Of a DNA stretch of 64,000 nt, positions 3,093 through 17,829 are shown piece by piece. Source of the DNA: Acinetobacter suaedae (GTDB lineage Bacteria > Pseudomonadota > Gammaproteobacteria > Pseudomonadales > Moraxellaceae). Numbering within the stretch: position 1 is the stretch's first letter; each line of letters starts with the position of its first letter. The notes under the pieces are model-generated. The model had not been told where the DNA came from. It searched no databases and saw nothing but the letters and a program-made list of their open reading frames with translations. Made by a program: the position numbers and the translations under genes. The stretch covers positions 1,178,001-1,242,000 of the forward strand of contig NZ_CP043909.1 in assembly GCF_008630915.1 (NCBI RefSeq), read 5' to 3'.

Positions 3093-5351
3093 TTATTTTC
3101 CACCAAAGACATAAGCAACGCCGACACGACCACCAAACTCATTACCACCAGCAAAGCCAAAAGCCCCACTTGCAGATAGTCTGTTTGTAAATGATGTTAC
3201 AACACCAACTGATCCAGCAGTTTCACCTTCATAGTGGCCAACACCACCAAATACTGCAACTTGACCAGGTGCAACATTTGGAACAGCTTGTTGAGCAGCC
3301 AAGGCAATCGCAACACCACGATATGCTGTTTTCTGTACATCATCTATACGACGATTTAATTGACTTGCACGCGTGTCTGTATAGGCATTTGCTGCTTGTA
3401 ATGTTGCCGCATCACCTTCAATCATTTCTTGGCGAATTTTTGCACGATCTGCAGTTGCATAATTAAACTCAGCTTCAACATCACGACCATTTACAACGAC
3501 TTTATCAGCGATAACATCTTTAGCAGTTACTTTATCTGCGTTAACATCTTTTGCGTTTAATACATCTGTATTAATATTTTTTGCATTTACAGTTGTTGTA
3601 TTTAAACCTTCAGCCGTCAACTCTGTCGTTGATGTTTCACCGTCAACGGATTTACTAAGTTTTAATGCGCTACTTGTTAATAGAGCATCTTCTTCCATAC
3701 CTGATTCAAGTTCACCGTTAGCATTGTATTGCGCATTTTTTTGGCTAACGCGAACACCATATGCTCCATTTCCATCTGCATTAGTACCAGAAACAAATTC
3801 TTTGCTTTCTTCTGTACGTTCAAGTGAGTCAACGACTGAAACATCTTGATGTGAAACTGCATTACCATTTTGATCAGTTGTAGCAACGTTAGCAGTGAAA
3901 GAAGGTTTAGTTACAGTTGAGTCTTTATAGGTTAAGTTCTCATCGGTTAATTCTTTTACAACATTTGTGGTGATAGCATCGACACGTTGGTAATCTGCTG
4001 CTGTGCCACCATGTACAAATTCAGCTCCTTCTGTAGAACCTGTATAGCGTTTAAAATCACCATTATCTAAGACATATAAAGATGCAGAATCTTTATCGCC
4101 ATTTGAATTGTTACCTAATCCATCTTCAATACGATAGTATTCTGTACCATCAGCTGCTTTGAATTTTTCAACAAGCTTAGTTTGAGTATCATTACTGATA
4201 GGGCTGTAAGTCGTTGATGGATTTTGAGGGAGATTACGTCCTTCACCACCATATGTGAGATCAACACGGTTAGTTTTTACATCACCATCTGCCCAAACAT
4301 GTTCTTTAGCCCAAACGTCATTTTCAGCAATTACATCACGCCCTGCAGTTACATCACGTCCTGCATTCATGTCACGCCCAGCATTGACATCAATACCTGC
4401 GTTTACATGCTCAGTTGCATTCACGTTTCGACCGGCATTAACATCTTGATTGGCATCAACATTTCGAAGTGCTCTTACATCACGCCCTGCAAGTACATCG
4501 GTACCAGCAGTAACTGCATTACCAGCTGAAACATTATTACCAGCCATGATGTTTTCAGTTGCATTCACATTCCGCCCAGCATTGACGTCACGACCAGCAC
4601 TGATATCTAGATCTACTTCTAGATTTGTAGTACTCAATGTTCCATCAACACGTGCATTACCTGTGATATGAGTGTTTCCATTGACTTGTAGTTCATTGGT
4701 CTCAACACGTTGTGTTATTTCAGCACGAATTTGGTTATCACCATCAATATGATGTTGGTGTTCTTCAGCTATTTTTTGATCTATATACGTGGTATTTGCT
4801 GCACCTAAATTGTTGACCTGTGTTTGTAATGTATGCAACTGTGAGCCATTAACAGCTTCTGTCGAATTTGCATTGATTGCACCTGCATTGACACCACTTA
4901 AAGTTTGGCTATTAAAATTTACACCTGTTTGTGAAAAATGAGTCGCTTTGTCTCCAGCATAAACACCAGCACCTAAATGGTTGACTAAGACGCGAGTTCC
5001 TGTTTGGTTATTAACATCAAAGTCAGATGAGTGCAAAGCAGTACCCTCCTGATCTATAAGAAGCTTAGACCCTTGATTGTTTTGGATCATACTAGAATTT
5101 CTGCCAAAATCGACTACTTGAATTTGATTTACGCCAGCCTCACCAACAAATCCTTTAATCGTATTGTATGGTCCTGTGCCACCTCCAACACCGTCATTAT
5201 CCGCAAACAATGAAATATTGCCACTACCAGAGACGCAAGTTGTCCACTGACTATTACAATCCTGATTGGTAGGTGAGGCTGGGGCAGCAAAAGTACTTCC
5301 AGCAGCAACTAAAGCAATTGTTAATGTTGAAAGTTGAAATTTAATTCTCAT
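3093..5351 (-). CDS. YadA-type trimeric autotransporter adhesin 1
   Basis: A 752-residue type Vc autotransporter. Residues 1-22 are a Sec signal. Residues 23-100 form an N-terminal domain shared with the adhesin at 5922-7925 (ISLFADNDGVGG, IKGFVG, IQNN). A neck-like segment (AVNGSQL, about 166) follows. Residues 249-362 are about nineteen hexapeptides of pattern [D/N]-V-x-A-G-R. A less repetitive region then leads to a coiled-coil stalk (DRAKIRQEM, about 635) and a C-terminal YadA anchor barrel of about 70 residues. It should trimerise in the outer membrane and mediate adhesion. Two 19-bp palindromes bracket its predicted promoter. Confidence 0.9.
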   Translation of the reverse strand: MRIKFQLSTLTIALVAAGSTFAAPASPTNQDCNSQWTTCVSGSGNISLFADNDGVGGGTGPYNTIKGFVGEAGVNQIQVVDFGRNSSMIQNNQGSKLLIDQEGTALHSSDFDVNNQTGTRVLVNHLGAGVYAGDKATHFSQTGVNFNSQTLSGVNAGAINANSTEAVNGSQLHTLQTQVNNLGAANTTYIDQKIAEEHQHHIDGDNQIRAEITQRVETNELQVNGNTHITGNARVDGTLSTTNLEVDLDISAGRDVNAGRNVNATENIMAGNNVSAGNAVTAGTDVLAGRDVRALRNVDANQDVNAGRNVNATEHVNAGIDVNAGRDMNAGRDVTAGRDVIAENDVWAKEHVWADGDVKTNRVDLTYGGEGRNLPQNPSTTYSPISNDTQTKLVEKFKAADGTEYYRIEDGLGNNSNGDKDSASLYVLDNGDFKRYTGSTEGAEFVHGGTAADYQRVDAITTNVVKELTDENLTYKDSTVTKPSFTANVATTDQNGNAVSHQDVSVVDSLERTEESKEFVSGTNADGNGAYGVRVSQKNAQYNANGELESGMEEDALLTSSALKLSKSVDGETSTTELTAEGLNTTTVNAKNINTDVLNAKDVNADKVTAKDVIADKVVVNGRDVEAEFNYATADRAKIRQEMIEGDAATLQAANAYTDTRASQLNRRIDDVQKTAYRGVAIALAAQQAVPNVAPGQVAVFGGVGHYEGETAGSVGVVTSFTNRLSASGAFGFAGGNEFGGRVGVAYVFGGK
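4266..4607 (-). repeat. Hexapeptide-coding repeats in adhesin 1
   Basis: About nineteen degenerate 18-base units encode [D/N]-V-x-A-G-[R/N/T]. The regular six-residue period suggests a solenoid or beta-roll rather than a coiled coil. Confidence 0.85.
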
Positions 5352-5402: not shown

Positions 5403-5421
5403 AATGTGCTTATAGCGCATT
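5403..5421. promoter_or_regulatory. 19-bp palindrome A (adhesin 1 promoter)
   Basis: AATGTGC-TTATA-GCGCATT lies just downstream of the predicted -10 box of the adhesin 1 promoter. Its arms are identical to those of the pgaA site at 10432-10450. Confidence 0.7.
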
Positions 5422-5427
5422 CAATTG

Positions 5428-5456
5428 ATCTTACGATATGTTGCTTTAATGTGCAA
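5428..5456 (-). promoter_or_regulatory. Predicted adhesin 1 promoter
   Basis: On the minus strand, TTGCAC (5456-5451) and TAAGAT (5433-5428) are 17 bases apart, about 80 bases before the adhesin start codon. Palindrome B covers the -35 box and palindrome A lies just past the -10 box. Confidence 0.6.
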
Positions 5457-5592
5457 TATGCGCACTATTTTTTATTTGCGCACATAGTTCTGAGTTCTTT
5501 TTGATAAGTGAGGACTCTGTCAGTAAAGAGGCTAAAATACAAAGTAGTAGTAAGATCATAAATGAAATTGCCATAATCGATTCTGTTTTCAT
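5446..5592 (-). CDS. Small single-helix membrane protein
   Basis: A 48-residue frame starting MKTESIMAIS, followed by a hydrophobic stretch (FMILLLLCILASLL) and a polar C-terminus ending SAHIAH. GAGG lies 6 bases before the ATG, a good ribosome binding site. A strong promoter (TTTACA-N16-TATAAT on the minus strand, 5727-5700) with a palindrome over its -10 box lies about 110 bases upstream. The gene is on the same strand as adhesin 1 and ends 94 bases before it. I infer a small inner-membrane protein co-regulated with the adhesin; the function is unknown. Confidence 0.55.
   Translation of the reverse strand: MKTESIMAISFMILLLLCILASLLTESSLIKKNSELCAQIKNSAHIAH
5448..5466. promoter_or_regulatory. 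19-bp palindrome B (adhesin 1 -35 region)
   Basis: AATGTGC-AATAT-GCGCACT overlaps the predicted -35 box of the adhesin 1 promoter and the last codons of the small gene. Confidence 0.65.
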
Positions 5593-5692
5593 TGGTTACC
5601 TCAATTATTTGATATTTATATTTCACCGGATATCGTTTAAGACTCGAGCTTTGTCCGTGAGACTATTTTTAGAAAATAGGTAATTTGCATAA

Positions 5693-5711
5693 TATGTGTA
5701 TTATACACATA
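5693..5711. promoter_or_regulatory. Perfect 19-bp palindrome C over a -10 box
   Basis: TATGTGT-ATTAT-ACACATA is a perfect palindrome that extends by two more pairs on each side. Its centre coincides with the TATAAT box of a minus-strand promoter (TTTACA at 5727-5722, 16-base spacer) that would serve the small gene at 5446-5592. Confidence 0.75.
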
Positions 5712-5843
5712 TTTTTTGTTTTGTAAATTTGCATTTATAGATGCTTTTCTCTGAGTCGTAATAGACTTAATTGGATACTTACTGAGGTTAAGTTAGGTGA
5801 AATTGATACTTTGTAATAGGTGTTGTTTTATGGCTTTTAATTA

Positions 5844-5888
5844 TATAAAGGCCGTTATAGGGTAGCTAAACCTAAAACAGCCTTTATA
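5844..5888 (-). terminator. Hairpin downstream of adhesin 2
   Basis: TATAAAGGC (5844-5852) pairs with GCCTTTATA (5880-5888) just past the stop of the gene at 5922. The following minus-strand bases are A/T-rich but hold no clean T-run, so it is a probable rather than certain terminator. Confidence 0.5.
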
Positions 5889-5921
5889 AATTACAGTAAA
5901 ATTATTTTATGAAACTTCTTG

Positions 5922-7925
5922 CTATTTCCATTGAAAACCTACTGATACACCGCCGCCCCAATTACCACGACTGTTTCCAGTTCCTGCAGCTTTGTATACC
6001 CATTTATTATTTTCTGTCACGCCACTAACGCCAATAGCATAACCCGTTTCACTTTCCCATTGACCTAAACCTGCACTTACCATACTACCTCCAGCTTCTG
6101 TGGGTTGTGGTAATGATGCAATTGCGATGCTTGAAGCTACTGCTGCTTGATAACGATTTTCTAGTTTGTTAATGCGTTGATCAGTATAGGCTTTAGATGA
6201 TGCCAGTGTTTGAGCATCACCTTGAGCCATTTCTGTTCGAATCGCAGCGCGGTCAGCAGTTGCTGCATTATCAGCTGCAATACGTTCGGATTTTTCTTTA
6301 GCATCTGCGGCAGCAAACTCATCACGAATTTTTGTGCGGTCAGCAGTTGCTGCGTTGTCAGCTGCTATACGTTCAGCTTTTTCCTTCGCATCTGCATCTG
6401 CTCGAATAACAGCTTCGGCATCTATATTTGCTTGTAGTACTGCATCTGCGGCAGCAAATTCATCACGGATTTTTGCACGATCTGCTGTTGCTGCATTGTC
6501 AGCAGCTACACGTTCTGCCTTTTCTTTGGCATCTGCTGCTGCAAATTCAGTACGGATTTTTTCACGGTCTGTAGTTGCAGCATTATCAGCAGCAATACGT
6601 TCAGCCTTTTCTGTATCAATACGAGCATTTAATGCTGTATCCGCAGCTTCTCGTGCTTCTGTTTCTTTAGCAATCTGGGAGTCTGTATAATCTTTGGCTT
6701 CTTGAGTGCTATTTGCTATATCTGTTGCAATATGATCTATACGGCCATCAAGTCGTATAATATCTCCTTTAACTGCTGTCATATCTGTTTTAAGTGTATT
6801 TACGTCGCCTTCAATATTTGTGACACGTGTATCCAGCGTATCAATTCGAGTATGCGCATCATTAGCCCGAGTGAGTGCCTGATTTGCTGTTGTTTGCGCT
6901 GCGCCTGCTATTGTAGAAGCTTGGTTTGCTGTATTTTGTGCATCATCAGCTTTAGTCTCTACTGTCTTTAACTGAGCAAAATTCACCGCATCAGTATCTT
7001 CTATACCTGCTTTGACATTGGTAATTTGGCGTTCAGCACCAGTTGAGCCGACAGAAATAGTATTTGTGCGGTCTGCGATTGAACCTGACCCCAGTGCAAC
7101 AGAGTTATCTTCTTGTGCTTTTGAAGCGTGTCCTAGTGCAAGTGCGGATTGACCTGATGCTTCTGCCATAAAACCGATGGCACTAGCATAATCAGCTAAA
7201 GCTTTTGATTGATCTCCTAGTGCTGTTCCAGCGACACCTTGTGTTTGTGAAAGAAAACCAGTTGCGACACCATATTGATCTGCAATAGCGCCATGTCCTG
7301 TCGCCACAGCTCCTGGACCATTTGTCGTTGCGGTTGTACCCAATGCCCAAGATTCGTGTTCAGCATTTGGGGTGCCATTGCTGCCAACAGGGTTACTTGT
7401 CCCTAAAACTTTATCGCCTGAACCAACACTTATATTGGAAATTGCTTCATTTAACTGCCCTAAATTCACCGCATCAGTATCTTCTGTGCCATTAGCAACC
7501 CCCATTAATTGCTGATCATTAAAGTGAACGCCATCTGCCATAAATCTAGTAAAGTGATTAGGCGCAACAATTGTTACACCAGAGTCCTCTACCCACATGC
7601 TTCCAAGACCTGAAGATCTTAACTTTGTAAATCCACCATTAATCTCAAGTTGAGCTCCTGTATTATTTTGAATAGTTGTTTTATCTCGATTAAATTGGAA
7701 TACTCTTACTTGATCAACGCCTGGTTTTCCTACAAATCCTTTTATACTATTTAACTCTAATCCACCTACACCATCATTGTCAGCGAAAATAGCTGCGGAA
7801 CCATCTTGACCATCTAAACATGCCTTAGTCCAATAAGTTGTGCAGGCTTGATTCTCTACAGGTGCAGGTGCGGCAAAAGCGCCCCCAGAAGCTAAAGCAA
7901 TTGCTAATGTTGAAATGTTTTTCAT
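5922..7925 (-). CDS. YadA-type trimeric autotransporter adhesin 2
   Basis: A 667-residue type Vc autotransporter. It has a short Sec signal (residues 1-19) and the N-terminal domain shared with adhesin 1 (ADNDGVGG, IKGFVG, IQNN). Residues 190-290 form a classic YadA/Hia head of left-handed beta-roll repeats (AVATGHGAIA, SALALGHASK, SVALGSGS). A neck (DTDAVNFAQL) leads to a long coiled-coil stalk, then a C-terminal anchor. Residues 437-565 are four near-identical copies of an AERIAADNAATADR module. Surface adhesion is expected from the family. Different heads and stalks behind one shared N-terminal domain suggest domain shuffling. Confidence 0.92.
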   Translation of the reverse strand: MKNISTLAIALASGGAFAAPAPVENQACTTYWTKACLDGQDGSAAIFADNDGVGGLELNSIKGFVGKPGVDQVRVFQFNRDKTTIQNNTGAQLEINGGFTKLRSSGLGSMWVEDSGVTIVAPNHFTRFMADGVHFNDQQLMGVANGTEDTDAVNLGQLNEAISNISVGSGDKVLGTSNPVGSNGTPNAEHESWALGTTATTNGPGAVATGHGAIADQYGVATGFLSQTQGVAGTALGDQSKALADYASAIGFMAEASGQSALALGHASKAQEDNSVALGSGSIADRTNTISVGSTGAERQITNVKAGIEDTDAVNFAQLKTVETKADDAQNTANQASTIAGAAQTTANQALTRANDAHTRIDTLDTRVTNIEGDVNTLKTDMTAVKGDIIRLDGRIDHIATDIANSTQEAKDYTDSQIAKETEAREAADTALNARIDTEKAERIAADNAATTDREKIRTEFAAADAKEKAERVAADNAATADRAKIRDEFAAADAVLQANIDAEAVIRADADAKEKAERIAADNAATADRTKIRDEFAAADAKEKSERIAADNAATADRAAIRTEMAQGDAQTLASSKAYTDQRINKLENRYQAAVASSIAIASLPQPTEAGGSMVSAGLGQWESETGYAIGVSGVTENNKWVYKAAGTGNSRGNWGGGVSVGFQWK
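6231..6617 (-). repeat. Stalk repeats in adhesin 2
   Basis: About four copies of a 28- to 40-residue coiled-coil module (AERIAADNAATADR plus KIRDEFAAADAKE) are encoded by near-identical DNA. This is a likely site of length variation by recombination. Confidence 0.85.
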
Positions 7926-7961
7926 GAAATACGTCCTAGAAATTTAAGATTATTGATTTTA

Positions 7962-7980
7962 AATGTTTGTTTAACACATT
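7962..7980. promoter_or_regulatory. 19-bp palindrome D (adhesin 2)
   Basis: AATGTTT-GTTTA-ACACATT sits 37 bases before the adhesin 2 start codon. An outer TTTAAATGT/ACATTTAAA pairing extends it by two bases. Confidence 0.5.
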
Positions 7981-8099
7981 TAAATTTATATTTAAATGTT
8001 GCTTCTCACAATAGTTTTGTATATTTTTTTATATTAATTTTTTTATGTTATTGATTTTTATTAATGTATTTAAATTTATTTTTTGTTGCTGCTTCTCGT

Positions 8100-8118
8100 T
8101 ATGTGTATTGTGTGCATT
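8100..8118. promoter_or_regulatory. 19-bp palindrome E
   Basis: TATGTGT-ATTGT-GTGCATT, a weaker match to the common motif. The 12 bases CTCGTTATGTGT at its left are repeated exactly at 9261-9272. Confidence 0.4.
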
Positions 8119-8357
8119 TGGTATATATAGTGTGATATCCGATGCAATATTGAAAATATTGATTCTAAACATTATTGACCATGAGAAATATTCATAGTCG
8201 ACAATATTTTGATGTTTCTTTCGTGAAAGTATCCAACCATCAGGCTTTTTAATTTTCCAAGTGATAAAATAGTAATATGAAATTTACACATTTTTATGAT
8301 TTAGAAATGTTAAAGTAATCAACGTATGTATTTTATATAGTCTTTGCTGGAGAGATT

Positions 8358-9257
8358 ATGCAAAAACACGTTTTAGCAAGTAAAAATATGGAGTTATCAG
8401 TTACTACACAGCTATCTCATAATACAGAAACGACTTTGGAACATGTGCTTGATATTATGCCAGAATTGATTCGTTGGCTTGTAAAATCGGGCATTGGTTA
8501 TAGTGAGTTTTCTGCGGCTTTGCGACCTTTATTTTATAATGAAGCGATTAAGGAGCTTGATAGGATTGCGCAAAAGAAAACTGATTCTTCAATTAGCATA
8601 TTGTCTGGTCTCACTCGGCGTGAAGTAAATGCTTTTCGCCCACCAGATTCAAAACAACATGTTTGTATAGACATGCAGCAGTTTTTAATGCCTGTCAGTG
8701 TACCTGCAAGAGTTGTTGGGCTGTGGATTCATCAAAGATTGCCTTTTCGTATTCCAATCACGGGCAGTGAGGAAAGCTTTGAATCGCTTGTTCAACAAAT
8801 ATCATCTGAAAAACATCCGCGTTCTATTTTACTCGAACTCAAACGACTTGGTGTTGTAGTTGAGATCAATGATGATGTGATATTGCAGACAGGAAGTTTT
8901 ACACCTTCACCACATGCTGATGAAAGTAAGAAGCTATTTGCTGAAAGTATTGTGGATCATTTAGCTGCAGGTATTCATAACATTACGGAAGGAGATGATG
9001 CTTTTCTAGAGCAGGCGATTTTTGCAGATGAATTGACTTATGAATCTGTTGTAGAGCTTAAAAAACTATGTGTAGACCAATGGCAAACCATGGCAAAAAC
9101 GGTTTTAGCTCGAACGATGGAGCTGTGCCGGAAGGACGAAGGAAAGTTAGATGCAAGTTATCGCTTTAGACTAGGAGTCTTTCAATATGAGGCAATGGAA
9201 CAGCATATTGTAGGAATAAACAGTAGCCGTAATTCTTGTAAGGAAAGTGGTAGTTAA
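8358..9257 (+). CDS. DUF6502-type protein, candidate regulator
   Basis: A 299-residue soluble protein with no signal or membrane helix. The N-terminal half resembles DUF6502 proteins: an RWLVKSGIGYSEFSAAL helix pair, then SILSGLTRREV, which looks like a helix-turn-helix recognition segment. The C-terminal half is helical, with no catalytic motif that I recognise. It is divergent from adhesin 2 and is followed by a lipoprotein gene whose promoter starts right after its stop codon. Location among operator-bearing surface genes makes a DNA-binding role attractive, but this is inference. Start chosen for the GGAG ribosome binding site. Confidence 0.65.
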   Translation: MQKHVLASKNMELSVTTQLSHNTETTLEHVLDIMPELIRWLVKSGIGYSEFSAALRPLFYNEAIKELDRIAQKKTDSSISILSGLTRREVNAFRPPDSKQHVCIDMQQFLMPVSVPARVVGLWIHQRLPFRIPITGSEESFESLVQQISSEKHPRSILLELKRLGVVVEINDDVILQTGSFTPSPHADESKKLFAESIVDHLAAGIHNITEGDDAFLEQAIFADELTYESVVELKKLCVDQWQTMAKTVLARTMELCRKDEGKLDASYRFRLGVFQYEAMEQHIVGINSSRNSCKESGS

Positions 9258-9286
9258 TTGCTCGTTATGTGTGTTATGTTTATAAT
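9258..9286 (+). promoter_or_regulatory. Predicted promoter of lipoprotein gene
   Basis: TTGCTC and a perfect TATAAT are 17 bases apart, starting at the first base after the DUF6502 stop codon. Palindrome F overlaps the -10 box. Confidence 0.65.
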
Positions 9287-9293
9287 GCACATA
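9275..9293. promoter_or_regulatory. 19-bp palindrome F over a -10 box
   Basis: TATGTTT-ATAAT-GCACATA covers the TATAAT box of the lipoprotein promoter. An extra TATGTGT half-site lies at 9266-9272. Confidence 0.55.
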
Positions 9294-9402
9294 AATTTCT
9301 TTTGGAGATACTTTATTCAATCATTTATTTGTTCGGCTGAGATTTTTCTTAGAAGAGAAATATTCGTCCCACAAATGGAATTGTATGAATAAAGAGGGTG
9401 AT

Positions 9403-10191
9403 ATGGAATTACGTACTTTTTTACTTATGGGTGGTATTCTCCTGACAGGATGTGGAGGGGATGATTTTAGTGCTGGGGTCAGTTTAGGAGGGACAGGTAA
9501 TGGATCGGGGATAGGTGTAAATAACCCTCAACCTCCGACAACCAATCCTCCTATTATTGGTGAGCCTGATGAAACACCAATTCCTGAACTTGAAGAGGTT
9601 GATACTAGTATTTTAAAAGAACAAGTGTATTCAGGAAAAAAAGAACAAAGTTGTGGTGGATTACATCGTTCAATGTATTTTAAAGGATTGGTTAATGGAC
9701 AATATGATGAAATTGTCGAGGAGTTACGTACCCCAATTTCGCAATATGATCGGACTGTAGGTGCAATTCTACATGTAAAGGTATGTAATACAACTTCTAG
9801 TCCAGTTTATGAATATATTCCAAGTTGCCGATCTCCGATTTCATTGTTGAATCAGAATGGAACACCTATTTTGCCGCATAACTGGATGAGTTGTATTAAC
9901 TCGGAATTTATTCATGTTTATCAACCTAACCAGTGCCATACATATGATTTTCGTTATACATTTGCCAATGTGATCAAACAATGGAAGTTCAGATATCAGA
10001 CTGAATATGCTTTTAATTTGATTGGAAATGATAATCGAATTCAGTGTGAACCATTAGAGACATCGTTGAAAATTGTTGCAATGGATCAGGAGGAAGAAGT
10101 AACGTCACCTGATATTGATCAGCAACCTCCATTGGTTGGTGGGGGTTTTCCATCTAATGGTGGGCTTGTTGGAGTTGCACCACCACCATGA
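9403..10191 (+). CDS. Hypothetical lipoprotein
   Basis: A 262-residue predicted lipoprotein: a short hydrophobic signal ends in lipobox LTGC, then a Gly-rich and Pro-rich linker (NNPQPPTTNPP) leads to a Cys-containing domain (about residues 85-220) and a second Gly/Pro-rich tail. Several cysteines (SCGG, KVCN, PSCRS, MSCIN, NQCH, IQCE) suggest disulfides in the periplasm or at the surface. The start at 9403 is preferred over the ATG at 9385 because GAGGG lies just before it. I do not recognise the domain. Its promoter carries the same palindrome as the adhesin and pga promoters. Confidence 0.7.
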   Translation: MELRTFLLMGGILLTGCGGDDFSAGVSLGGTGNGSGIGVNNPQPPTTNPPIIGEPDETPIPELEEVDTSILKEQVYSGKKEQSCGGLHRSMYFKGLVNGQYDEIVEELRTPISQYDRTVGAILHVKVCNTTSSPVYEYIPSCRSPISLLNQNGTPILPHNWMSCINSEFIHVYQPNQCHTYDFRYTFANVIKQWKFRYQTEYAFNLIGNDNRIQCEPLETSLKIVAMDQEEEVTSPDIDQQPPLVGGGFPSNGGLVGVAPPP

Positions 10192-10260
10192 TTGGATTGT
10201 CAAACATATGCTAATTTGATTCAGATGTTTAGCCAACATGCAGAATCTAAATAAATCTTA

Positions 10261-10296
10261 AAAAACGCCACAATATATTTATATTGTGGCGTTTTT
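10261..10296. terminator. Bidirectional terminator
   Basis: A perfect 16-bp stem (AAAAACGCCACAATAT and its complement) with a 4-base loop, flanked by A and T runs. It separates the lipoprotein gene from the pga operon. Confidence 0.85.
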
Positions 10297-10431
10297 AACT
10301 TTGCTTTTAAAAAATCAATACCTTGTATGTCTTTGATAGATTAACTTTGGTCATATTTGGATGCTGATTTCGTAGATTTGATTAAATATAGGCTAATAAA
10401 AATAGTGATAAAGGGCAAATAATTCTAAAAA

Positions 10432-10450
10432 AATGTGCAATTAGCGCATT
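10432..10450. promoter_or_regulatory. 19-bp palindrome G (pgaA promoter)
   Basis: AATGTGC-AATTA-GCGCATT has the same arms as palindrome A. A plausible -10 box TATAGT at 10458-10463, with a 17-base spacer, would put the -35 region (10435-10440) inside the palindrome. Confidence 0.7.
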
Positions 10451-10503
10451 TTTAATGTATAGTCCTCAACCAATTTAATGTCGACTGTTTATATTTTGTT
10501 CAG

Positions 10504-12984
10504 ATGAAGCATATTAACTTAATCTCCATTTCTTTAGGCATAGGTTATTGCTTGTTATCCACTCATGTTGATGCTGCTAACTCAGTAATTGATCAAGAGA
10601 GAGAACAGGCAGTACAGTCCATTCGTCAAGGTAATACTGAGCAGGGAGTGGCACAACTTGCTCAATTAAGGAGCAAGTATCCAGAGGATCAGAAAATACT
10701 AGCGGATTATTTATTGGTCGAGTTACAAGCGGGGAGATTTAACGATTCAACGCTTTCACAGTTGCAGGAAATTAATGTGCATTTGTTTCCTCAATATGCA
10801 CAAATGTCTTTACTCTATGCGTTGAGAGATTTAAAAAGGTTTAAGCTCGCATTGGAGCTTGCTGAAAAGTTTTATACTTATAAGTCATCTAATGATTTAG
10901 GTTTAATGCTAGGGGGGCTTTATGCAGAGGATCAACAGATCGGACCTGCAAAGTTATATTTAGATCTAGTCAGCGTTCAAGAGTTAAACGTTAGTCAACT
11001 GGTACAGGGGGCTTATGCTTATCGGCGTATTGGTGATTTAATCCAAGCATTAGATTGGGCAACAATGGCTAGGTTATTACAACCTCATTCTGATGAAGTA
11101 CTACAACAATATTATCCTACACTTTTAGCTTTAGAAAGCAGTAAAAAAGCTTTAGCAGATGCAGAACAGGATCTGCTTAAAGTAAAAAACACCAAACTCT
11201 ATCATCAGATTAAACAGGCCTATTTTGCTCAAAATATACGTTATGCCATTGATTATTTAAGGTATAAAAAAAATTGGACTGAGCAGCAACCTTATTTGAA
11301 ACTTGATCAGGTTCTTGCTGAAATGTCAGCTTATGCACAAGATATTGATCTAAATGATAAAATGTTTAACACATTTTATTATGACTATATTTATGCTTTA
11401 AGTGTAAGAGGACATAGTCAAGAGGCGATTGATTGGTTAAATAAAACGAATAAAAATGTTGGGGAAGGATATTTCTCTGATAGAGATATTCCCAATTATA
11501 CCCGTCATGCGATAGCTGATGCCTATTTAGCTTTACGAAAACCAAAACATGCTGAGCAATGGTATAAAAGTTTATTAGATGATCAGAAATATTTAAATTT
11601 TGAAGTTTATACCGGGCTTTATTATTCTTATATTGAACAAGAAGAATATTTTCTAGCTGAAAAGCTTCTCAGTGATCTTGATCATCAATTACCACGATTA
11701 CAGTACAGTGATGCTAAAGGTTCTAATCCATGGGTACATCCTGATCGTGCAAGCTATATAGAATTACTGGGATTAAATCAAGCTTACAGCAATCGTCTTA
11801 AACAAGCTGAGCAATATTATCAAGACTTGTTAACTATTGCGCCAAATAATGATAGTTATATCAATCAATTGGCAATGATTCAGCGCTGGCGTGACAAACC
11901 ACTACAAGCAAATAAAACTCTAGCTCGCTTAAATGGATTACAGCCTGTTTCAAAAAGTCAAAAACTTAACCATATGCAAAATGCTCAGGCATTAGGTGAT
12001 GTCAAAACTTGGCGTAATGCATTGCACGAATTGAAGCAAATTGATCCAGAAGATACTGGTGTGATGAAGTCTGCCATTGAGCTTCAAGAACGAGATCGAC
12101 CTAGTATTGTTCATCATAGTGAATTTGGTCGCAGTCGCACGAAACAGGGTGACTCTGTTCATGGCATACAAGGTTTAAGTGATCGTAACTCAAAAACACA
12201 GTTGTATTCACCTTGGTTTTTATCAGATCAGTTTCGTATCTTAGCTCAGTATACTACACGATGGTCCGAGTATCGTGATGGAGTCATCCATGAGAATCGT
12301 TATGCTCTAGGTGGTGAATGGTCAGCATATCGTAAAACATTGACAGCTTTATTATCAGAAAATGAATTAGGACAACGTGCTGGTGTGAATATCCAATGGT
12401 CGCATTGGTTGAATGATCATTGGAGCTATCGTTTTGGTTTTGATAGTGCGGCTGATATTCCTTTACAAGCAATTCAACAAAATCATAATGGTCAGTCTTA
12501 CAGTGCTGGTTTGACATGGAAACAAGACTCATCTCGTAGAGCCAGTGCAGATTATCAGTGGGTTGATATTAATGATGGTAACACCCGTCAAGAATTGCAG
12601 CTGAACTTTAATCAAGGTTTGTGGTACACCCCTCATCAGACCTCGCAGGTCAATATTTCTGCCTATTACGGCAAGAATAACTTACCTCATGCCACTTATT
12701 TTAACCCTAGAAACCACTATAGCCTAGATTTTAATTGGTCACATGATTGGCTTACATGGCGTAATTATGAACGCTTATTTAACCAGCATTTTGAGTTGGG
12801 TATCGGAATATATAGTCAACGAGACTATACCACCTTGCCGACTTATGCCGCTTTATATCGTCATGAATGGCAGGTAACAAAAGCTTGGAAACTTCATTAT
12901 GGCATCGGTTGGCAGCGGCATCCGTATGATGGTCAACAGGAACAACGTACACATGGTGTGATTGGTTTTGAGGGGAAATTTTAA
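10504..12984 (+). CDS. pgaA: PNAG export outer-membrane porin PgaA
   Basis: An 826-residue PgaA homologue that exports partially deacetylated poly-beta-1,6-N-acetylglucosamine across the outer membrane. It has an N-terminal signal (to about residue 24), a helical TPR superhelix to about residue 530, then aromatic-rich alternating strands forming the C-terminal 16-stranded barrel (WRNYERLFNQHFELGIGIYS near the end), closing in GFEGKF. It is the first gene of a tight pgaABCD operon; pgaB begins at the next base after its stop. No good Shine-Dalgarno precedes the ATG. The promoter carries a palindrome also found at the adhesin genes. Confidence 0.92.
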   Translation: MKHINLISISLGIGYCLLSTHVDAANSVIDQEREQAVQSIRQGNTEQGVAQLAQLRSKYPEDQKILADYLLVELQAGRFNDSTLSQLQEINVHLFPQYAQMSLLYALRDLKRFKLALELAEKFYTYKSSNDLGLMLGGLYAEDQQIGPAKLYLDLVSVQELNVSQLVQGAYAYRRIGDLIQALDWATMARLLQPHSDEVLQQYYPTLLALESSKKALADAEQDLLKVKNTKLYHQIKQAYFAQNIRYAIDYLRYKKNWTEQQPYLKLDQVLAEMSAYAQDIDLNDKMFNTFYYDYIYALSVRGHSQEAIDWLNKTNKNVGEGYFSDRDIPNYTRHAIADAYLALRKPKHAEQWYKSLLDDQKYLNFEVYTGLYYSYIEQEEYFLAEKLLSDLDHQLPRLQYSDAKGSNPWVHPDRASYIELLGLNQAYSNRLKQAEQYYQDLLTIAPNNDSYINQLAMIQRWRDKPLQANKTLARLNGLQPVSKSQKLNHMQNAQALGDVKTWRNALHELKQIDPEDTGVMKSAIELQERDRPSIVHHSEFGRSRTKQGDSVHGIQGLSDRNSKTQLYSPWFLSDQFRILAQYTTRWSEYRDGVIHENRYALGGEWSAYRKTLTALLSENELGQRAGVNIQWSHWLNDHWSYRFGFDSAADIPLQAIQQNHNGQSYSAGLTWKQDSSRRASADYQWVDINDGNTRQELQLNFNQGLWYTPHQTSQVNISAYYGKNNLPHATYFNPRNHYSLDFNWSHDWLTWRNYERLFNQHFELGIGIYSQRDYTTLPTYAALYRHEWQVTKAWKLHYGIGWQRHPYDGQQEQRTHGVIGFEGKF

Positions 12985-14802
12985 ATGAAAACTTTAACTT
13001 TGAGAAAGATCTTACTATCAGTTGTTATCACAGCAAGTTTGACCCCACATTTAATCCAGCCAACAAGAGCACAAAATCAATTTGTCGCACTGACTTTCCA
13101 CGATGTGCGAGATGATGTGAAAAAGCAAGGTGACCATGATGTTTATGCAATTAGCACAAGAAATTTATCCAGTTTTTTCGATTGGATGAAGGCAAATGAT
13201 TGGACACCTATCACTTTGAAACAGATACAGCAAGCAAAAAAGTTGGGTAATCCACTGCCTAAAAATGCTGTATTGCTATGTTTCGATGATGGTGCTTTGA
13301 GTAGTTATCTTAAAGTATTTCCTTTACTCAAACATTATAACGTACCCGCTGTTTTTGCGATTCCAACAAGTTGGATAAATGGCAATACCCAAGCTGCTTA
13401 TGAAGCATATGGTGAAGGGAACTTAATGACTTGGTCGCAAATGAGAGAAATGCAGGCATCAGGGCTAGCTGAATTTGCATCGCACTCTCATGATTTGCAT
13501 CATGGCATCTTGGCAAATCCGCAACAAAATCAAAAACCAGCTGCTATTAGTTACCAGTATTTTCCTGAACAACACCGTTATGAAACAGATAATGAGTTTA
13601 AACAGAGAATTTACCATGATCTTCAACAGTCAAAACAAGTTCTGGATAAAGAACTAGGTGGAGATTCGCAAGCGATAATTTGGCCTTATGGTGCCGTTAC
13701 TACTGAAGTAGCAGAGGTAGCCAAGCAGGCTGGATTTTCAATGTCATTTAGTTTAGGACAGGCATTTACAAATACCAATCAACAAACTGGAACTTATCAA
13801 CGTGCACTGATTATGGGAAACCCAACACCAGAGCAAATTGCTGGGAGTGTGCGTAGTGCGGGCAAATATGTGAGTGAGCCCTTATATCCGCCTTTTCGAA
13901 TGATTCATTTTGATTTGATGAAGTTGGAAACTGATCTACAGGACGAGAGTGAACCAAGTTTAGGCAGGCTGTTGCAGCAGCTTGAAGTGCTAAAAAGTAA
14001 TGTCCTCTTGATAGATGGTTTAGCAAAGCCTGATCATCAAGGTCCTTATCAAAAAGCCTATTTCCCAACATTTCATCTACCACAGTCAGTAGATATGCTT
14101 TCGCGAATTGCATGGCAGGCACGAACACGTGTAGGGCAATTAGTAATTGTGAATCTACCAATTTTTCCAAATGTTTATAAACCTGATCAAGTGGTTGATT
14201 TAGCTCGTGATGCTGCCAGATTTAATCCAAGTATAAATAGTATTAGTTTAGATTCTGAGCAATTTCTAGATTGTTTGTGGACTGATCAAATAACGACTTT
14301 TGAGTGTCAAAACAATGTAAAAACAGTTTTACATTTACAGCAACGAATACAGGAAGCAATTCGACCATATTTGGATATGAGTAGTCGTTATTTCCCTAGT
14401 TTAAAAGTGTCGGTTGGACAGGCACAAGCCAGAGCAATATCTCAAGCTATTCATCAATTACAGTTAGAAGATAGTCTCTTAATTTTAGAGATAGATGTAT
14501 TAAAACAACCTCAAGTTTTGCACGATTTGTTGTGGGCAATTGATCAGTTAACCGATCAAAAAAAGAAACATATCGCTATTCATTTAACTACACCAGAAAC
14601 TTTAAATGATGTTCAAGGCCAAATTTTAAGACAGTCATTTTTACTTTTACGTGAACATGGCATACAAAAATTAGGTATTACACCTCACCATCTTTATTCA
14701 GGAGAGGCGATTCATCGACAACTCTATTCAGTATTAAGTTTGAATGATAGTCCCATGACTTATAAGAATTTTAATCATGATAGTAATGGAGCTGCGCAAT
14801 GA
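12985..14802 (+). CDS. pgaB: PNAG N-deacetylase PgaB with degenerate C-terminal domain
   Basis: A 605-residue periplasmic PgaB. The N-terminal CE4 deacetylase domain (about 32-290) keeps FDD at 100-102 and the metal-binding SHSHDLHH at 166-173. The C-terminal part (about 303-605) aligns with the PgaB glycoside-hydrolase domain (MIHFDL, LSRIAWQARTR), but the catalytic FHDD block reads SLDSEQ near 421-426, so hydrolysis is probably lost. The signal peptide has no lipobox cysteine, unlike the lipoprotein PgaB of E. coli. It overlaps pgaC by 4 bases (ATGA). An intact copy of the missing activity is encoded at 16551-17732. Confidence 0.9.
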   Translation: MKTLTLRKILLSVVITASLTPHLIQPTRAQNQFVALTFHDVRDDVKKQGDHDVYAISTRNLSSFFDWMKANDWTPITLKQIQQAKKLGNPLPKNAVLLCFDDGALSSYLKVFPLLKHYNVPAVFAIPTSWINGNTQAAYEAYGEGNLMTWSQMREMQASGLAEFASHSHDLHHGILANPQQNQKPAAISYQYFPEQHRYETDNEFKQRIYHDLQQSKQVLDKELGGDSQAIIWPYGAVTTEVAEVAKQAGFSMSFSLGQAFTNTNQQTGTYQRALIMGNPTPEQIAGSVRSAGKYVSEPLYPPFRMIHFDLMKLETDLQDESEPSLGRLLQQLEVLKSNVLLIDGLAKPDHQGPYQKAYFPTFHLPQSVDMLSRIAWQARTRVGQLVIVNLPIFPNVYKPDQVVDLARDAARFNPSINSISLDSEQFLDCLWTDQITTFECQNNVKTVLHLQQRIQEAIRPYLDMSSRYFPSLKVSVGQAQARAISQAIHQLQLEDSLLILEIDVLKQPQVLHDLLWAIDQLTDQKKKHIAIHLTTPETLNDVQGQILRQSFLLLREHGIQKLGITPHHLYSGEAIHRQLYSVLSLNDSPMTYKNFNHDSNGAAQ

Positions 14803-16070
14803 TGAATTGGTTTTTAGGACTCCCTTGGATTGATATCTTATTTGGCTTTGCTTTCTTTTATCCATTAGCAATGGCTTGGGTATGGGTTGTTGGTGGATTG
14901 TGGTTCTTTTGGAAAAGAGAGCGAAAAGCCCAACCTTTTCCTCAACTTTTTGATGAGGGGTGTAGCATTATTATCCCTTGTTTCAATGAGGAGGCACAGG
15001 TACGTGAAACTATTCGTTACGCAATGCAAAGCCAATATCCAAAGTTTGAAGTTATTGCAGTGAACGATGGAAGCACGGATATGACTGCTGAAATTTTAAA
15101 TGAGTTAGCTGAACAATATGTGAAATTACGCGTAGTACATTTAGCAGAAAATCAAGGGAAGGCTTATGCCTTGCGCTCTGGTGCTTTGGTTAGTCAGTAC
15201 GAATATTTATTATGTATTGATGGCGATGCTTTACTACATCCACATACAGCGTTATGGATGATGCAGCCTTTAGTCCAGCATCCTCGTGTAGGAGCTGTGA
15301 CTGGAAATCCGCGTATTCTTAATCGTTCAGGTATGTTGGGCAAGTTACAGGTTGGTGAATTCTCATCCATTATCGGTATTGTGAAAAGAGCACAGCGTAC
15401 TTATGGCCGTTTATTTACTGTTTCAGGGGTAATAGCTGGTTTTCGTAAAACCGCTCTACATCGTGTTGGTTTTTGGTCGGAAGACATGATTACAGAGGAT
15501 ATTGATATTTCATGGAAGTTGCAGTTTGACCATTGGGATATTCAGTATGTTCCACAAGCACTTTGCTACATATATATGCCAGAAACTTTTCGAGGTTTAT
15601 GGAAACAGCGCTTGCGATGGGCTCAAGGTGGGCTAGAAGTATTATTTCACTATGTACCCAAAATGTTTAAGTGGCGATTACGGCGTATGTGGCCTGTAAT
15701 GCTAGAAACCTTAACAAGTATTGTATGGGCCTACGTCATTTTATTGATCATCGTATTATTTTTTGCTGGCCTGTTCGTACCAATACCAGCTCAATGGTAC
15801 ATCCATACGTTGCTACCGCAATGGTACGGCGCACTGCTAGGTATTACATGCATTGTACAGTTTGGTGTCAGTTTATATATAGACAAACGTTATGACGGTG
15901 ATCGTTTCATCCGTAACTATATTTGGATTATTTGGTATCCAATATTTTTTTGGCTATTGAGTGTTTTTACTACGGTTTTCGCTTTGCCGAAAACATTATT
16001 CAAAAAACCTAAACAGCGTGCGCGGTGGATTAGTCCAGACCGTGGTTTCAGGGGAGGAAATGAAAAATGA
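14799..16070 (+). CDS. pgaC: PNAG synthase glycosyltransferase PgaC
   Basis: A 423-residue family 2 processive N-acetylglucosaminyltransferase of the inner membrane that polymerises UDP-GlcNAc into PNAG. Visible motifs are IIPCFNEE and NDGSTD at the nucleotide site, DGDALL (DxD), TEDIDISW (catalytic ED) and QRLRWAQGG (QxxRW). One or two N-terminal helices and several C-terminal membrane helices are present. Its ATG overlaps the pgaB stop by 4 bases, and its own stop overlaps the pgaD start by 4, which indicates translational coupling. Confidence 0.95.
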   Translation: MMNWFLGLPWIDILFGFAFFYPLAMAWVWVVGGLWFFWKRERKAQPFPQLFDEGCSIIIPCFNEEAQVRETIRYAMQSQYPKFEVIAVNDGSTDMTAEILNELAEQYVKLRVVHLAENQGKAYALRSGALVSQYEYLLCIDGDALLHPHTALWMMQPLVQHPRVGAVTGNPRILNRSGMLGKLQVGEFSSIIGIVKRAQRTYGRLFTVSGVIAGFRKTALHRVGFWSEDMITEDIDISWKLQFDHWDIQYVPQALCYIYMPETFRGLWKQRLRWAQGGLEVLFHYVPKMFKWRLRRMWPVMLETLTSIVWAYVILLIIVLFFAGLFVPIPAQWYIHTLLPQWYGALLGITCIVQFGVSLYIDKRYDGDRFIRNYIWIIWYPIFFWLLSVFTTVFALPKTLFKKPKQRARWISPDRGFRGGNEK

Positions 16071-16579
16071 ATCAGCAATTTATTCGTACTATTGTGACGA
16101 ACATTGAACATGATGTAAGTAAGTTAGATATTCCCAAATATATAGATAAACCTGAATATGTGACTAATCGTAAAGCTGGCTATAGTTTGCAGATGATCGG
16201 ATGGTTATTGTGGATATGGTTATTATTACCTTTGTTCACAATTGTACTTTGGATGTATGAATTTTGGGTTGTTCATCAGTATGTCATGATCCCACCAATA
16301 ATTGCACAAGTTTATAATTTACGTTTTATTGTATTGGGTATATCACTTCTTGTGGTGACATTGTTGTTATGGGCAAGTTATAACTGGTATCGGTTTAAAG
16401 ATAATGAACGTAGGTTGAAAATGGAAAATACACCATTAGAAGAGTTTGTTCATTTCTTCGGCGTAACTTTGGCAGATCAGCAAAAGATGCAATCTGCCAA
16501 AACACTCATTTTACATTATGATGTTCAAGGGCAGTTATGTGATTTCGATATCATTGGTAGTCAAAAGCTTGTTTTATAG
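16067..16579 (+). CDS. pgaD: PNAG synthase accessory protein PgaD
   Basis: A 170-residue inner-membrane protein with two membrane helices (about 45-70 and 85-110) and a cytoplasmic C-terminal segment, typical of PgaD. In E. coli, PgaD supports PgaC and binding of cyclic di-GMP activates the pair. It is the last gene of the pga operon. Its final 29 bases overlap the end of the convergent glycosidase gene, so no intergenic terminator separates the two. Confidence 0.88.
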   Translation: MNQQFIRTIVTNIEHDVSKLDIPKYIDKPEYVTNRKAGYSLQMIGWLLWIWLLLPLFTIVLWMYEFWVVHQYVMIPPIIAQVYNLRFIVLGISLLVVTLLLWASYNWYRFKDNERRLKMENTPLEEFVHFFGVTLADQQKMQSAKTLILHYDVQGQLCDFDIIGSQKLVL

Positions 16580-17732
16580 CATTAGCATTTGGATGCTGTT
16601 GTACAAAGTCCTCAGGATAATAGCCAATATGTTTAGCATTAAGATCTTTAAGCAATATAATATCTGCTTTAATTTTTAGGCTATTAATCGCTATATTTTT
16701 ATGCCAATCGAAGGTTTGTAGTTCAAATACAGTGCGTTCTAAATTAGGATCGTACTGTTTTGAATTCTTCACAAGCTGTTGGTAGAACATTTGATGGTCT
16801 GGTGCTTGTTCCATATAAGGCATCGCCATAATGGCATTATAATCATAGTATTTAAATGTACTTTTTAACGATTGGGCAAACCATTTCTCACTTTCAGGAT
16901 TAAGTGTAATTGGTGCATATGAGTTACGAGCGGTCTTTATATTGGGTTGTTTACATTTGACAATTTTTGAAACCCCATAAGCGAGTTGATCTAAATATTC
17001 TGTTTTATGTTTTGCAAAAAGGATCTGTTGTGGTTGCCACGGCTTGAAGACATAATGCTTATTAAAGCCCCATGAGTTAAAAGTGGCTAGGGCTAGGTGT
17101 TGTGTGTCCTCAAAGTCATTGAGTGTTATATCATCATGAAATAGTATGCCGTCTACTGGATTATTCGCAGCGAAGTCCTGATAAATTTCTGCAATGATTT
17201 TGATATTATTTGTATCAAACGGAGATAGACGAATATAGCCATCTCTGTTGTTTTTTGCGTGTTCAACATAAGTTAAGTTTGGTGTAGTTGGCTCCCATGC
17301 TATTAGAGGTAGCCAAGCAAAAATAGCTTGTACATCAGTAAACTGCTTTATTTGTTGAGAAACCGTATTAAAAATATTATCTCTAGTTGGTATATGGCGA
17401 TTTTTAAAATAAACCGTACTCGCAGATCCATTGGCATCGGGATCTGCAAAAGCTTGTAAAAAAATAGTATTAGGGCGGATTTGGTTGATACGTGAAATCA
17501 GTGCGAGGATGTTACGTTGTTGTTGGACTTTATCTGTATCGAATACATAGTCCAAATCAACATGCATGATATTCATATTACTGGGTACTTTACTCGGCGT
17601 TGTGTTGAATTCACATTGTGTCGAAAGAGGAATATAAGACTGTATTGGATGTTTTTTAAAGTCTAAATATTCTGCAAATGTTGATGTTGAATGTAACAAT
17701 GATGCTATAAATATTAGTAGTAAGTTTTTCAT
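16551..17732 (-). CDS. Free-standing PgaB C-terminal-type glycosidase (GH153-like)
   Basis: A 393-residue exported protein: signal peptide (cleavage near STFA-EY), then one domain matching the C-terminal glycoside-hydrolase half of PgaB. It keeps the signature blocks MHVDLDYVFD, TIFLQAFADPD, IRLSPFD, DGILFHDD (FHDD at 198-201), IKTARN, ESEKWFAQ and AIMAMPY. In PgaB of E. coli and Bordetella this domain cleaves partially deacetylated PNAG. There is no deacetylase domain. It converges on pgaD with a 29-base overlap. I infer that it supplies the hydrolase function lost from the PgaB of the operon, acting in the periplasm or outside. A palindrome of the shared motif lies 79 bases upstream. Confidence 0.88.
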   Translation of the reverse strand: MKNLLLIFIASLLHSTSTFAEYLDFKKHPIQSYIPLSTQCEFNTTPSKVPSNMNIMHVDLDYVFDTDKVQQQRNILALISRINQIRPNTIFLQAFADPDANGSASTVYFKNRHIPTRDNIFNTVSQQIKQFTDVQAIFAWLPLIAWEPTTPNLTYVEHAKNNRDGYIRLSPFDTNNIKIIAEIYQDFAANNPVDGILFHDDITLNDFEDTQHLALATFNSWGFNKHYVFKPWQPQQILFAKHKTEYLDQLAYGVSKIVKCKQPNIKTARNSYAPITLNPESEKWFAQSLKSTFKYYDYNAIMAMPYMEQAPDHQMFYQQLVKNSKQYDPNLERTVFELQTFDWHKNIAINSLKIKADIILLKDLNAKHIGYYPEDFVQQHPNANAIKQAFDYQ

Positions 17733-17810
17733 TAATATACACTTTATTTTTTGTTAAGGCAAAATTAACTTATCATAGATAAAGCAGAGTAAATAAAAAA
17801 TAATTGTTTT

Positions 17811-17829
17811 AATGTGTAAGCTGAACATT
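17811..17829. promoter_or_regulatory. 19-bp palindrome H (glycosidase gene)
   Basis: AATGTGT-AAGCT-GAACATT has the same spacing and AATGT cores as the other copies. It lies 79 bases before the start of the GH153-like gene. The rest of 17733-17979 holds no gene; a weak hairpin (17932-17957) lies past the IclR stop. Confidence 0.45.

Follow-up and report, generated by a model that had tools for sequence, protein, structure and literature searches.

A palindrome recurring upstream of Acinetobacter adhesin and polysaccharide genes, and a DUF6502 protein as its most likely reader

A 64,000-nucleotide stretch of the Acinetobacter suaedae genome (contig NZ_CP043909.1, positions 1178001-1242000; hereafter the window) contains a cluster of two YadA-type adhesin genes, a lipoprotein gene, the polysaccharide operon pgaABCD and a GHL13 glycoside hydrolase gene, and raises the question of which protein, if any, reads the 19-bp palindrome found repeatedly among them. 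An earlier sequence-only reading had listed eight palindromic sites and proposed that they are the operator of a local surface and biofilm regulon, naming no regulator. The palindrome proves to be real and is found again in related species; its reader is most likely a predicted DNA-binding switch encoded within the cluster itself, a protein of the family DUF6502. From sequence comparison and structural modelling we consider it probable that the palindrome is the operator of a dimeric, autoregulated DUF6502 switch, which is more likely a repressor than an activator.

Palindromic sites in the cluster and in the genome

The sites and genes of the cluster are listed in Table 1. All eight sites of the sequence-only reading are present at its coordinates, and two corrections to their description emerge. 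First, the form ascribed to them, WATGYGY-N5-RCRCATW, is exact for sites A, C and G, but B, D, E, F and H each carry one mismatch. Secondly, D, E, F and H had been taken as the weaker sites; scored with a matrix built from relatives' sites (see below), E is the weakest of the eight, but F gives the top score in the window and D and H score well. Four sites had been placed on promoter boxes: C and F contain TATAAT, A contains TATAAG, and at G the hexamer TATAGT begins 8 bases after the site. The TATAAT of site C is on the minus strand and is the region's best promoter-like match (11/12). Site B overlaps the 3' end of a 48-codon open reading frame (ORF), the small gene of the sequence-only reading, and can also be read as a terminator-like hairpin. 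A ninth site, absent from the earlier list, is located upstream of the DUF6502 gene. The sites end 37-175 bp ahead of the start codons of adhesin 1, the 48-codon ORF, adhesin 2, the DUF6502 gene, the lipoprotein gene, pgaA and the GHL13 gene, and each of the seven transcription units inferred for the cluster has at least one site upstream.

Table 1. Genes and palindromic sites of the cluster (window coordinates), and the locus of the DUF6502 paralog (genome coordinates). Scores are from the relatives' matrix; mismatches are to WATGYGY-N5-RCRCATW.
Feature	Coordinates	Strand	Sequence	Position	Details
Adhesin 1, YadA-type trimeric autotransporter	3093-5351	-			752 aa; YadA_anchor, 8e-8
Site A	5403-5421		AATGTGCTTATAGCGCATT	52 bp upstream of adhesin 1	exact; 17.1 bits
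48-codon ORF	5446-5592	-			one hydrophobic stretch; no NCBIfam match
Site B	5448-5466		AATGTGCAATATGCGCACT	97 bp upstream of adhesin 1	1 mismatch; 18.7 bits
Site C	5693-5711		TATGTGTATTATACACATA	101 bp upstream of 48-codon ORF	exact; 22.0 bits
Adhesin 2, YadA-type	5922-7925	-			667 aa; YadA stalk, head, anchor
Site D	7962-7980		AATGTTTGTTTAACACATT	37 bp upstream of adhesin 2	1 mismatch; 16.9 bits
Site E	8100-8118		TATGTGTATTGTGTGCATT	between divergent adhesin 2 and DUF6502 genes	1 mismatch; 14.2 bits, lowest of nine
Ninth site	8274-8292		AATATGAAATTTACACATT	~66 bp upstream of DUF6502 start codon	14.8 bits
DUF6502 protein, candidate regulator	8358-9257	+			299 aa; PF20112, 39 bits (cut-off 27)
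Site F	9275-9293		TATGTTTATAATGCACATA	92 bp upstream of lipoprotein gene	1 mismatch; 22.1 bits
DUF6502-partner lipoprotein	9385-10191	+			268 aa; lipobox LLTGC; no Pfam match
Site G	10432-10450		AATGTGCAATTAGCGCATT	54 bp upstream of pgaA	exact; 21.1 bits
pgaABCD	10504-16579	+			PgaA_barrel, polysaccharide deacetylase, glycosyltransferase 2, PgaD
pgaA	10504-12984	+			
pgaB	12985-14802	+			
pgaC	14799-16070	+			
pgaD	16067-16579	+			
Stand-alone GHL13 glycoside hydrolase, putative poly-N-acetylglucosamine (PNAG) hydrolase	16551-17732	-			393 aa; GHL13, 1.8e-102
Site H	17811-17829		AATGTGTAAGCTGAACATT	79 bp upstream of GHL13 gene	1 mismatch; 18.0 bits
DUF6502 paralog locus L063	G000:C1:2881000-2897000				own palindromes at 2886817 and 2888617; a (PT)n-repeat lipoprotein gene is close to one of them

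The expectation that the motif would stand out from the genomic background is borne out by a scan of the whole genome (3,373,643 bases, one contig). Exact copies of WATGYGY-N5-RCRCATW occur at three places, every one in this cluster, and with up to one mismatch there are 28 places, eight of which are the listed sites, as compared to 19 for the reversed-pattern control; near-exact copies outside the cluster are thus at control level. The remaining 20 places predict 0.07 per 12.4 kb, giving a Poisson P of ~2e-14 for an interval that was picked after the fact. At three mismatches there is no enrichment in the window (83 found versus 99 expected), so the case for the motif rests on the near-exact sites. 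For the cluster's intergenic DNA (1,542 bp modelled) a first-order model predicts about 0.03 sites of at least 14 bits; the cluster has nine, eight of them within the modelled stretches.

Recurrence in related genomes

Nine Acinetobacter loci encoding a relative of the DUF6502 gene (L011-L019) were fetched, together with loci from further genomes. The matrix was built from 38 intergenic sites (30 distinct) in 17 of the relatives' loci, matching WATGTKY-N5-RMACATW with no more than one mismatch; the training set contains no window sites, although the seed pattern was picked after viewing both the relatives' and the window sites and is not fully independent. Applied to the window, the matrix returns as its top nine matches the eight listed sites and the ninth at 8274-8292, with a tenth at 12.5 bits against 14.2 for the ninth match. 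The exact matches to WATGTKYN5RMACATW across this genome include a fifth, at 213660, which scores below 14 bits.

The palindrome is concentrated close to DUF6502 genes of the window type (defined below). With leave-group-out matrices there are 33 sites of at least 16 bits within 3 kb of DUF6502 (108 kb) versus two beyond (155 kb), and 15 of 16 loci are positive, the near duplicates L013 and L056, as well as L069 and L076, not being counted; the same count gives one site in 246 kb of 20 pga loci from other genomes. The background, taken from the reversed sequence of 29 other DUF6502 loci, is 2.2 matches/Mb at 14 bits or more, and the forward sequence of 27 loci of clades 2 and 3 of the DUF6502 tree has 26 matches/Mb, in part their own related palindromes. 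Blind palindrome counts are noisy: among 16 clade-1 loci (window included) ATGTG-N7-CACAT ranks fourth, behind palindromes of A/T runs, with 10 sites in nine loci against 1.0 expected.

A genus-wide search, chosen independently of DUF6502, used the pattern WATGTKYAWWWTRMACATW in 175 genomes of the genus and found it in 33 of them at 43 places (reversed control, nine places). We refer to a DUF6502 protein as window-type if it falls outside clades 2 and 3 and is at least 51% identical to that of the window, which does not define a strict clade. The pattern is present in 13 of the 18 genomes with a window-type DUF6502 and in 20 of the 157 others (Fisher P 2e-7, uncorrected for kinship), and in the window-type genomes 18 of its 22 places sit within 3 kb of DUF6502. 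Outside these genomes 15 of the 21 places have the form AATGTTCAATATG[AC]ACATA, which lies inside an ORF of ~520 amino acids in both loci opened (L179 and L181). Matches by an RsmB-Fmt/IlvD locus (recognised from Pfam in L170, and from the sizes of the genes alone in L169 and L173) and near a histidine-biosynthesis gene (L172) are probably unrelated and were set aside.

In the relatives the sites mostly lie ahead of YadA-like adhesin genes and the partner lipoprotein gene, and in a second genus (G197 and G215) sites of 23-26 bits precede a YadA-like gene adjoining DUF6502 and a lipoprotein. In G059 two sites lie ahead of an OmpA-family gene (by Pfam) with DUF6502 next door, and the large protein encoded after it resembles Bap, as judged from its start. 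In G068 a site stands ahead of a pilin-like ORF; its operon, which adjoins DUF6502, also encodes a PapD chaperone, an usher and a spore-coat-U protein. A YadA-type gene preceded by a site lies on a contig other than that of DUF6502 in both G112 and G059; the two contigs in G059 are both short and may be neighbours.

The DUF6502 protein as candidate reader

The candidate regulator scores above the curated cut-off of PF20112 as a whole protein, a family to which Pfam assigns no function; the one name looked for, 'DUF6502', was not found in the literature searched. This exact protein is encoded by one contig only in the protein database. Its predicted structure has a mean predicted local distance difference test score (pLDDT) of 81.3, with ten-residue means of at least 88 across residues 21-180. 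A winged helix at residues 113-183 of the model resembles many DNA-binding domains in a structure search (e.g. 6az6, 2g7u and 2pex), and there is also a helix-turn-helix (HTH)-like unit at residues 76-93, together with long C-terminal helices. The model thus has a DNA-binding fold, though a fold alone is no proof of DNA binding. Both the ninth site and site E lie upstream of the DUF6502 gene, as for an operator at its own promoter, although they are the two weakest of the nine.

We infer that DUF6502 binds the sites, dimerises, controls its own gene and represses its targets. A dimer would bind through the winged helix, and perhaps also through the N-terminal HTH-like unit, with one subunit per half-site of a sequence close to WATGTKY-N5-RMACATW. 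The promoters bound would be its own and those of the two YadA adhesins, the small ORF, the partner lipoprotein, pgaABCD and the GHL13 hydrolase; DUF6502 would probably repress them all, such that one signal releases the adhesin and polysaccharide genes together. Repression is favoured because the operators cover the -35 region or the -10, or follow closely on a predicted promoter, and such varied positions over the promoter argue for a repressor.

Several observations weigh against this reading. The Foldseek search gave no whole-chain match with E below 0.2. Except in the genus-wide search, loci were gathered via DUF6502, so that its constant presence there is by selection. Five of the 18 window-type genomes lack the strict pattern; in four of these, looser sites do occur close to DUF6502, and in G068 there is one at a distance of 6.3 kb. 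The divergent DUF6502 loci L069 and L076 have no nearby palindrome, and neither do 30 distant DUF6502 loci sampled at the level of the class, in which the matrix finds nothing above 4 bits. Two further points, a recurrent spacing between site and -10, which an activator could explain too, and strong sites in two genomes without a DUF6502 match, bear directly on the alternatives.

The strongest alternative, though a rather doubtful one, is that DUF6502 binds these sites but activates, with the palindrome taking the place of the -35 box. A -10-like hexamer (4/6, with A2 and T6) starts 7-11 bases past the site in 17 of 29 oriented sites, nine of the 29 being from the window, a count made with no shuffled control; the window sites concerned are B, D, G and H, and there is no obvious -35 besides the palindrome. 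However, related sequences also produce peaks at offsets of 2, 14, 15 and 28. The -10 itself falls within sites C and F, and in L012-L018 the site comes directly after a TATGTTA-TTTTT block that we read as a -10. Activators rarely tolerate such varied site positions.

It is unlikely that a different regulator encoded elsewhere reads the palindrome and that DUF6502 is a co-inherited neighbour. The genomes G038 and G120 (loci L174 and L178, respectively) have no DUF6502 match and yet carry sites of 25-26 bits ahead of an OmpA-family gene; but of 16 OmpA-family loci the only other one with a site is that of G059, with DUF6502 next door. A second candidate is an HTH_28-like gene, located between DUF6502 and the adhesin genes or beside DUF6502 in 10 related loci, several with an upstream palindrome. 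It is unmatched in seven of the 12 genomes searched (this one, G122, G104, G068, G067, G197 and G215), of which G122, G104, G197 and G215 still carry palindromes beside DUF6502, and it was rejected as the regulator on these grounds. A global regulator, moreover, would leave sites elsewhere, whereas the motif is at control level across the rest of the genome. The HTH_28/IS630-like gene itself (~115-125 amino acids; L011-L019 and L050), mostly between DUF6502 and the adhesins, could be a second regulator or a domesticated fragment of a transposase.

Ownership of the sites by a global regulator resembling CRP or Vfr is very improbable. The half-sites, TGTG...CACA, do resemble the CRP consensus, which is TGTGA-N6-TCACA, but the gap between TGTG and CACA is 7 bases in the sites and 8 in that consensus, and a CRP site was rejected on this spacing; furthermore, position 7 is C or T, not A, in 59 of the 60 training half-sites, and beyond the cluster the motif shows only control-level frequency. 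Least probable of all is that these are chance AT-rich palindromes or RNA hairpins with no regulatory role, which would fit the lack of enrichment at three mismatches and the hairpin reading of site B, but which is contradicted by the cross-species matrix scan, by the number of sites relative to the model and by recurrence across species and in a second genus.

Paralogs, possible target capture and known systems

A second DUF6502 gene in this genome (2888861-2889637) encodes a protein 50% identical to the first and has its own lipoprotein partner. The pattern RTGTKAAAWTTTMACAY has just two exact matches genome-wide, each no more than 2.1 kb upstream of the paralog and with the same spacing geometry as the first palindrome; the pattern was drawn from such sites, and the informative part is its absence elsewhere in the genome. 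The first-type matrix scores one of the paralog's palindromes at 15.9 bits, and cross-talk between the two operator types is therefore possible. In clade 2 a similar palindrome is present in intergenic DNA upstream of the operon in 9 of 11 loci. More broadly, a sample of 369 gammaproteobacterial genomes from 272 genera yielded DUF6502 in 99 genomes and 80 genera, and 14 control genomes yielded none. We suggest tentatively, as an idea that falls just short of probable, that DUF6502 is a large family of transcription regulators which in Acinetobacter and its kin acts as a portable adhesion switch with a private palindrome and a partner surface lipoprotein, and has captured different adhesive systems in different species: YadA adhesins, the OmpA-family/Bap-like operon, the chaperone-usher pilus operon, and here polysaccharide synthesis. 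Paralogs would retain the spacing between half-sites but change their inner letters.

The lipoproteins adjoining DUF6502 in the window and in L011, L012, L015, L016, L018, L051, L052, L157, L158, L063 and L060 share a C...VSLGGxGxG start after the lipobox. That of L067 diverges, with TKGGTGNG, and in two other genera GSGGTG stands at the corresponding place in DUF5666 proteins encoded next to DUF6502. The shared start is possibly a signal for surface export or tethering.

The proposal of a local surface and biofilm operator stands in most respects, with sites upstream of seven units, control-level frequency elsewhere and recurrence by DUF6502 genes, but its pgaABCD part looks lineage-specific. 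In this genome a terminator-like hairpin with a 16-pair stem (10261-10296) lies between the lipoprotein gene and pgaA, and pgaA therefore probably has its own promoter. In 20 fetched pga loci of other genomes (L118-L137), scanned for matches of at least 9 bits, none has a site of at least 14 bits ahead of pgaA, neither the seven window-type genomes with a close pga operon nor the 13 genomes without a window-type DUF6502, although weak 9-11-bit matches are present there in three of the latter. One 14-bit match in L118 lies within pgaA, and matches in L130, L132, L134 and L137 fall within the GHL13 gene or at it and resemble coding sequence. The pgaA gene was thus rejected as a conserved target, and the sites of pgaABCD and the GHL13 gene look like a capture specific to this lineage.

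PNAG would be the substrate of the GHL13 hydrolase. PgaB matches the GHL13 domain only weakly (1.5e-9, 75 residues), the full domain being encoded by the separate convergent gene, whose end overlaps pgaD by 29 bp. At the left end of the window, residues 1-102 of a 329-amino-acid ORF (553-1542) recur at 95% identity in positions 1-306, a tandem duplicate cut by the window end.

If this interpretation is correct, a family without an assigned function gains a testable job, an operator sequence and a list of targets, and the locus illustrates how some Acinetobacter species tie adhesins and a biofilm polysaccharide to one local switch. It would also be a case of regulon capture, with an operator ahead of pgaA here but in none of the seven other window-type genomes with a close pga operon.

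Comparison with known systems reveals both likenesses and differences. HetR of heterocystous cyanobacteria has half-site letters that differ from those of the window palindrome, and kinship with it finds no support: the Foldseek E value is 0.55, and hhalign gives a probability of 2.3% with a shallow HetR profile (effective number of sequences 1.2), which was made from an alignment of 24 of 120 listed HetR relatives, the HetR sequence used having been checked against the PDB. The structure search listed no family convincingly covering the whole chain. Local autoregulated winged-helix regulators (MarR, IclR, GntR and similar families) are alike in having palindromic operators at their own and neighbouring promoters and a winged helix of the same fold; unlike them, the window protein has no Pfam match to these families and has the additional HTH-like unit and the long C-terminal helices. 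Among Acinetobacter regulators, AdeRS, LeuO and H-NS are likewise linked to biofilm or adhesins. BfmRS is a further Acinetobacter biofilm and adhesin regulator, and all four are known as broad regulators. In contrast to these, the operator described here is found mostly at a single locus, next to a protein from a different family.

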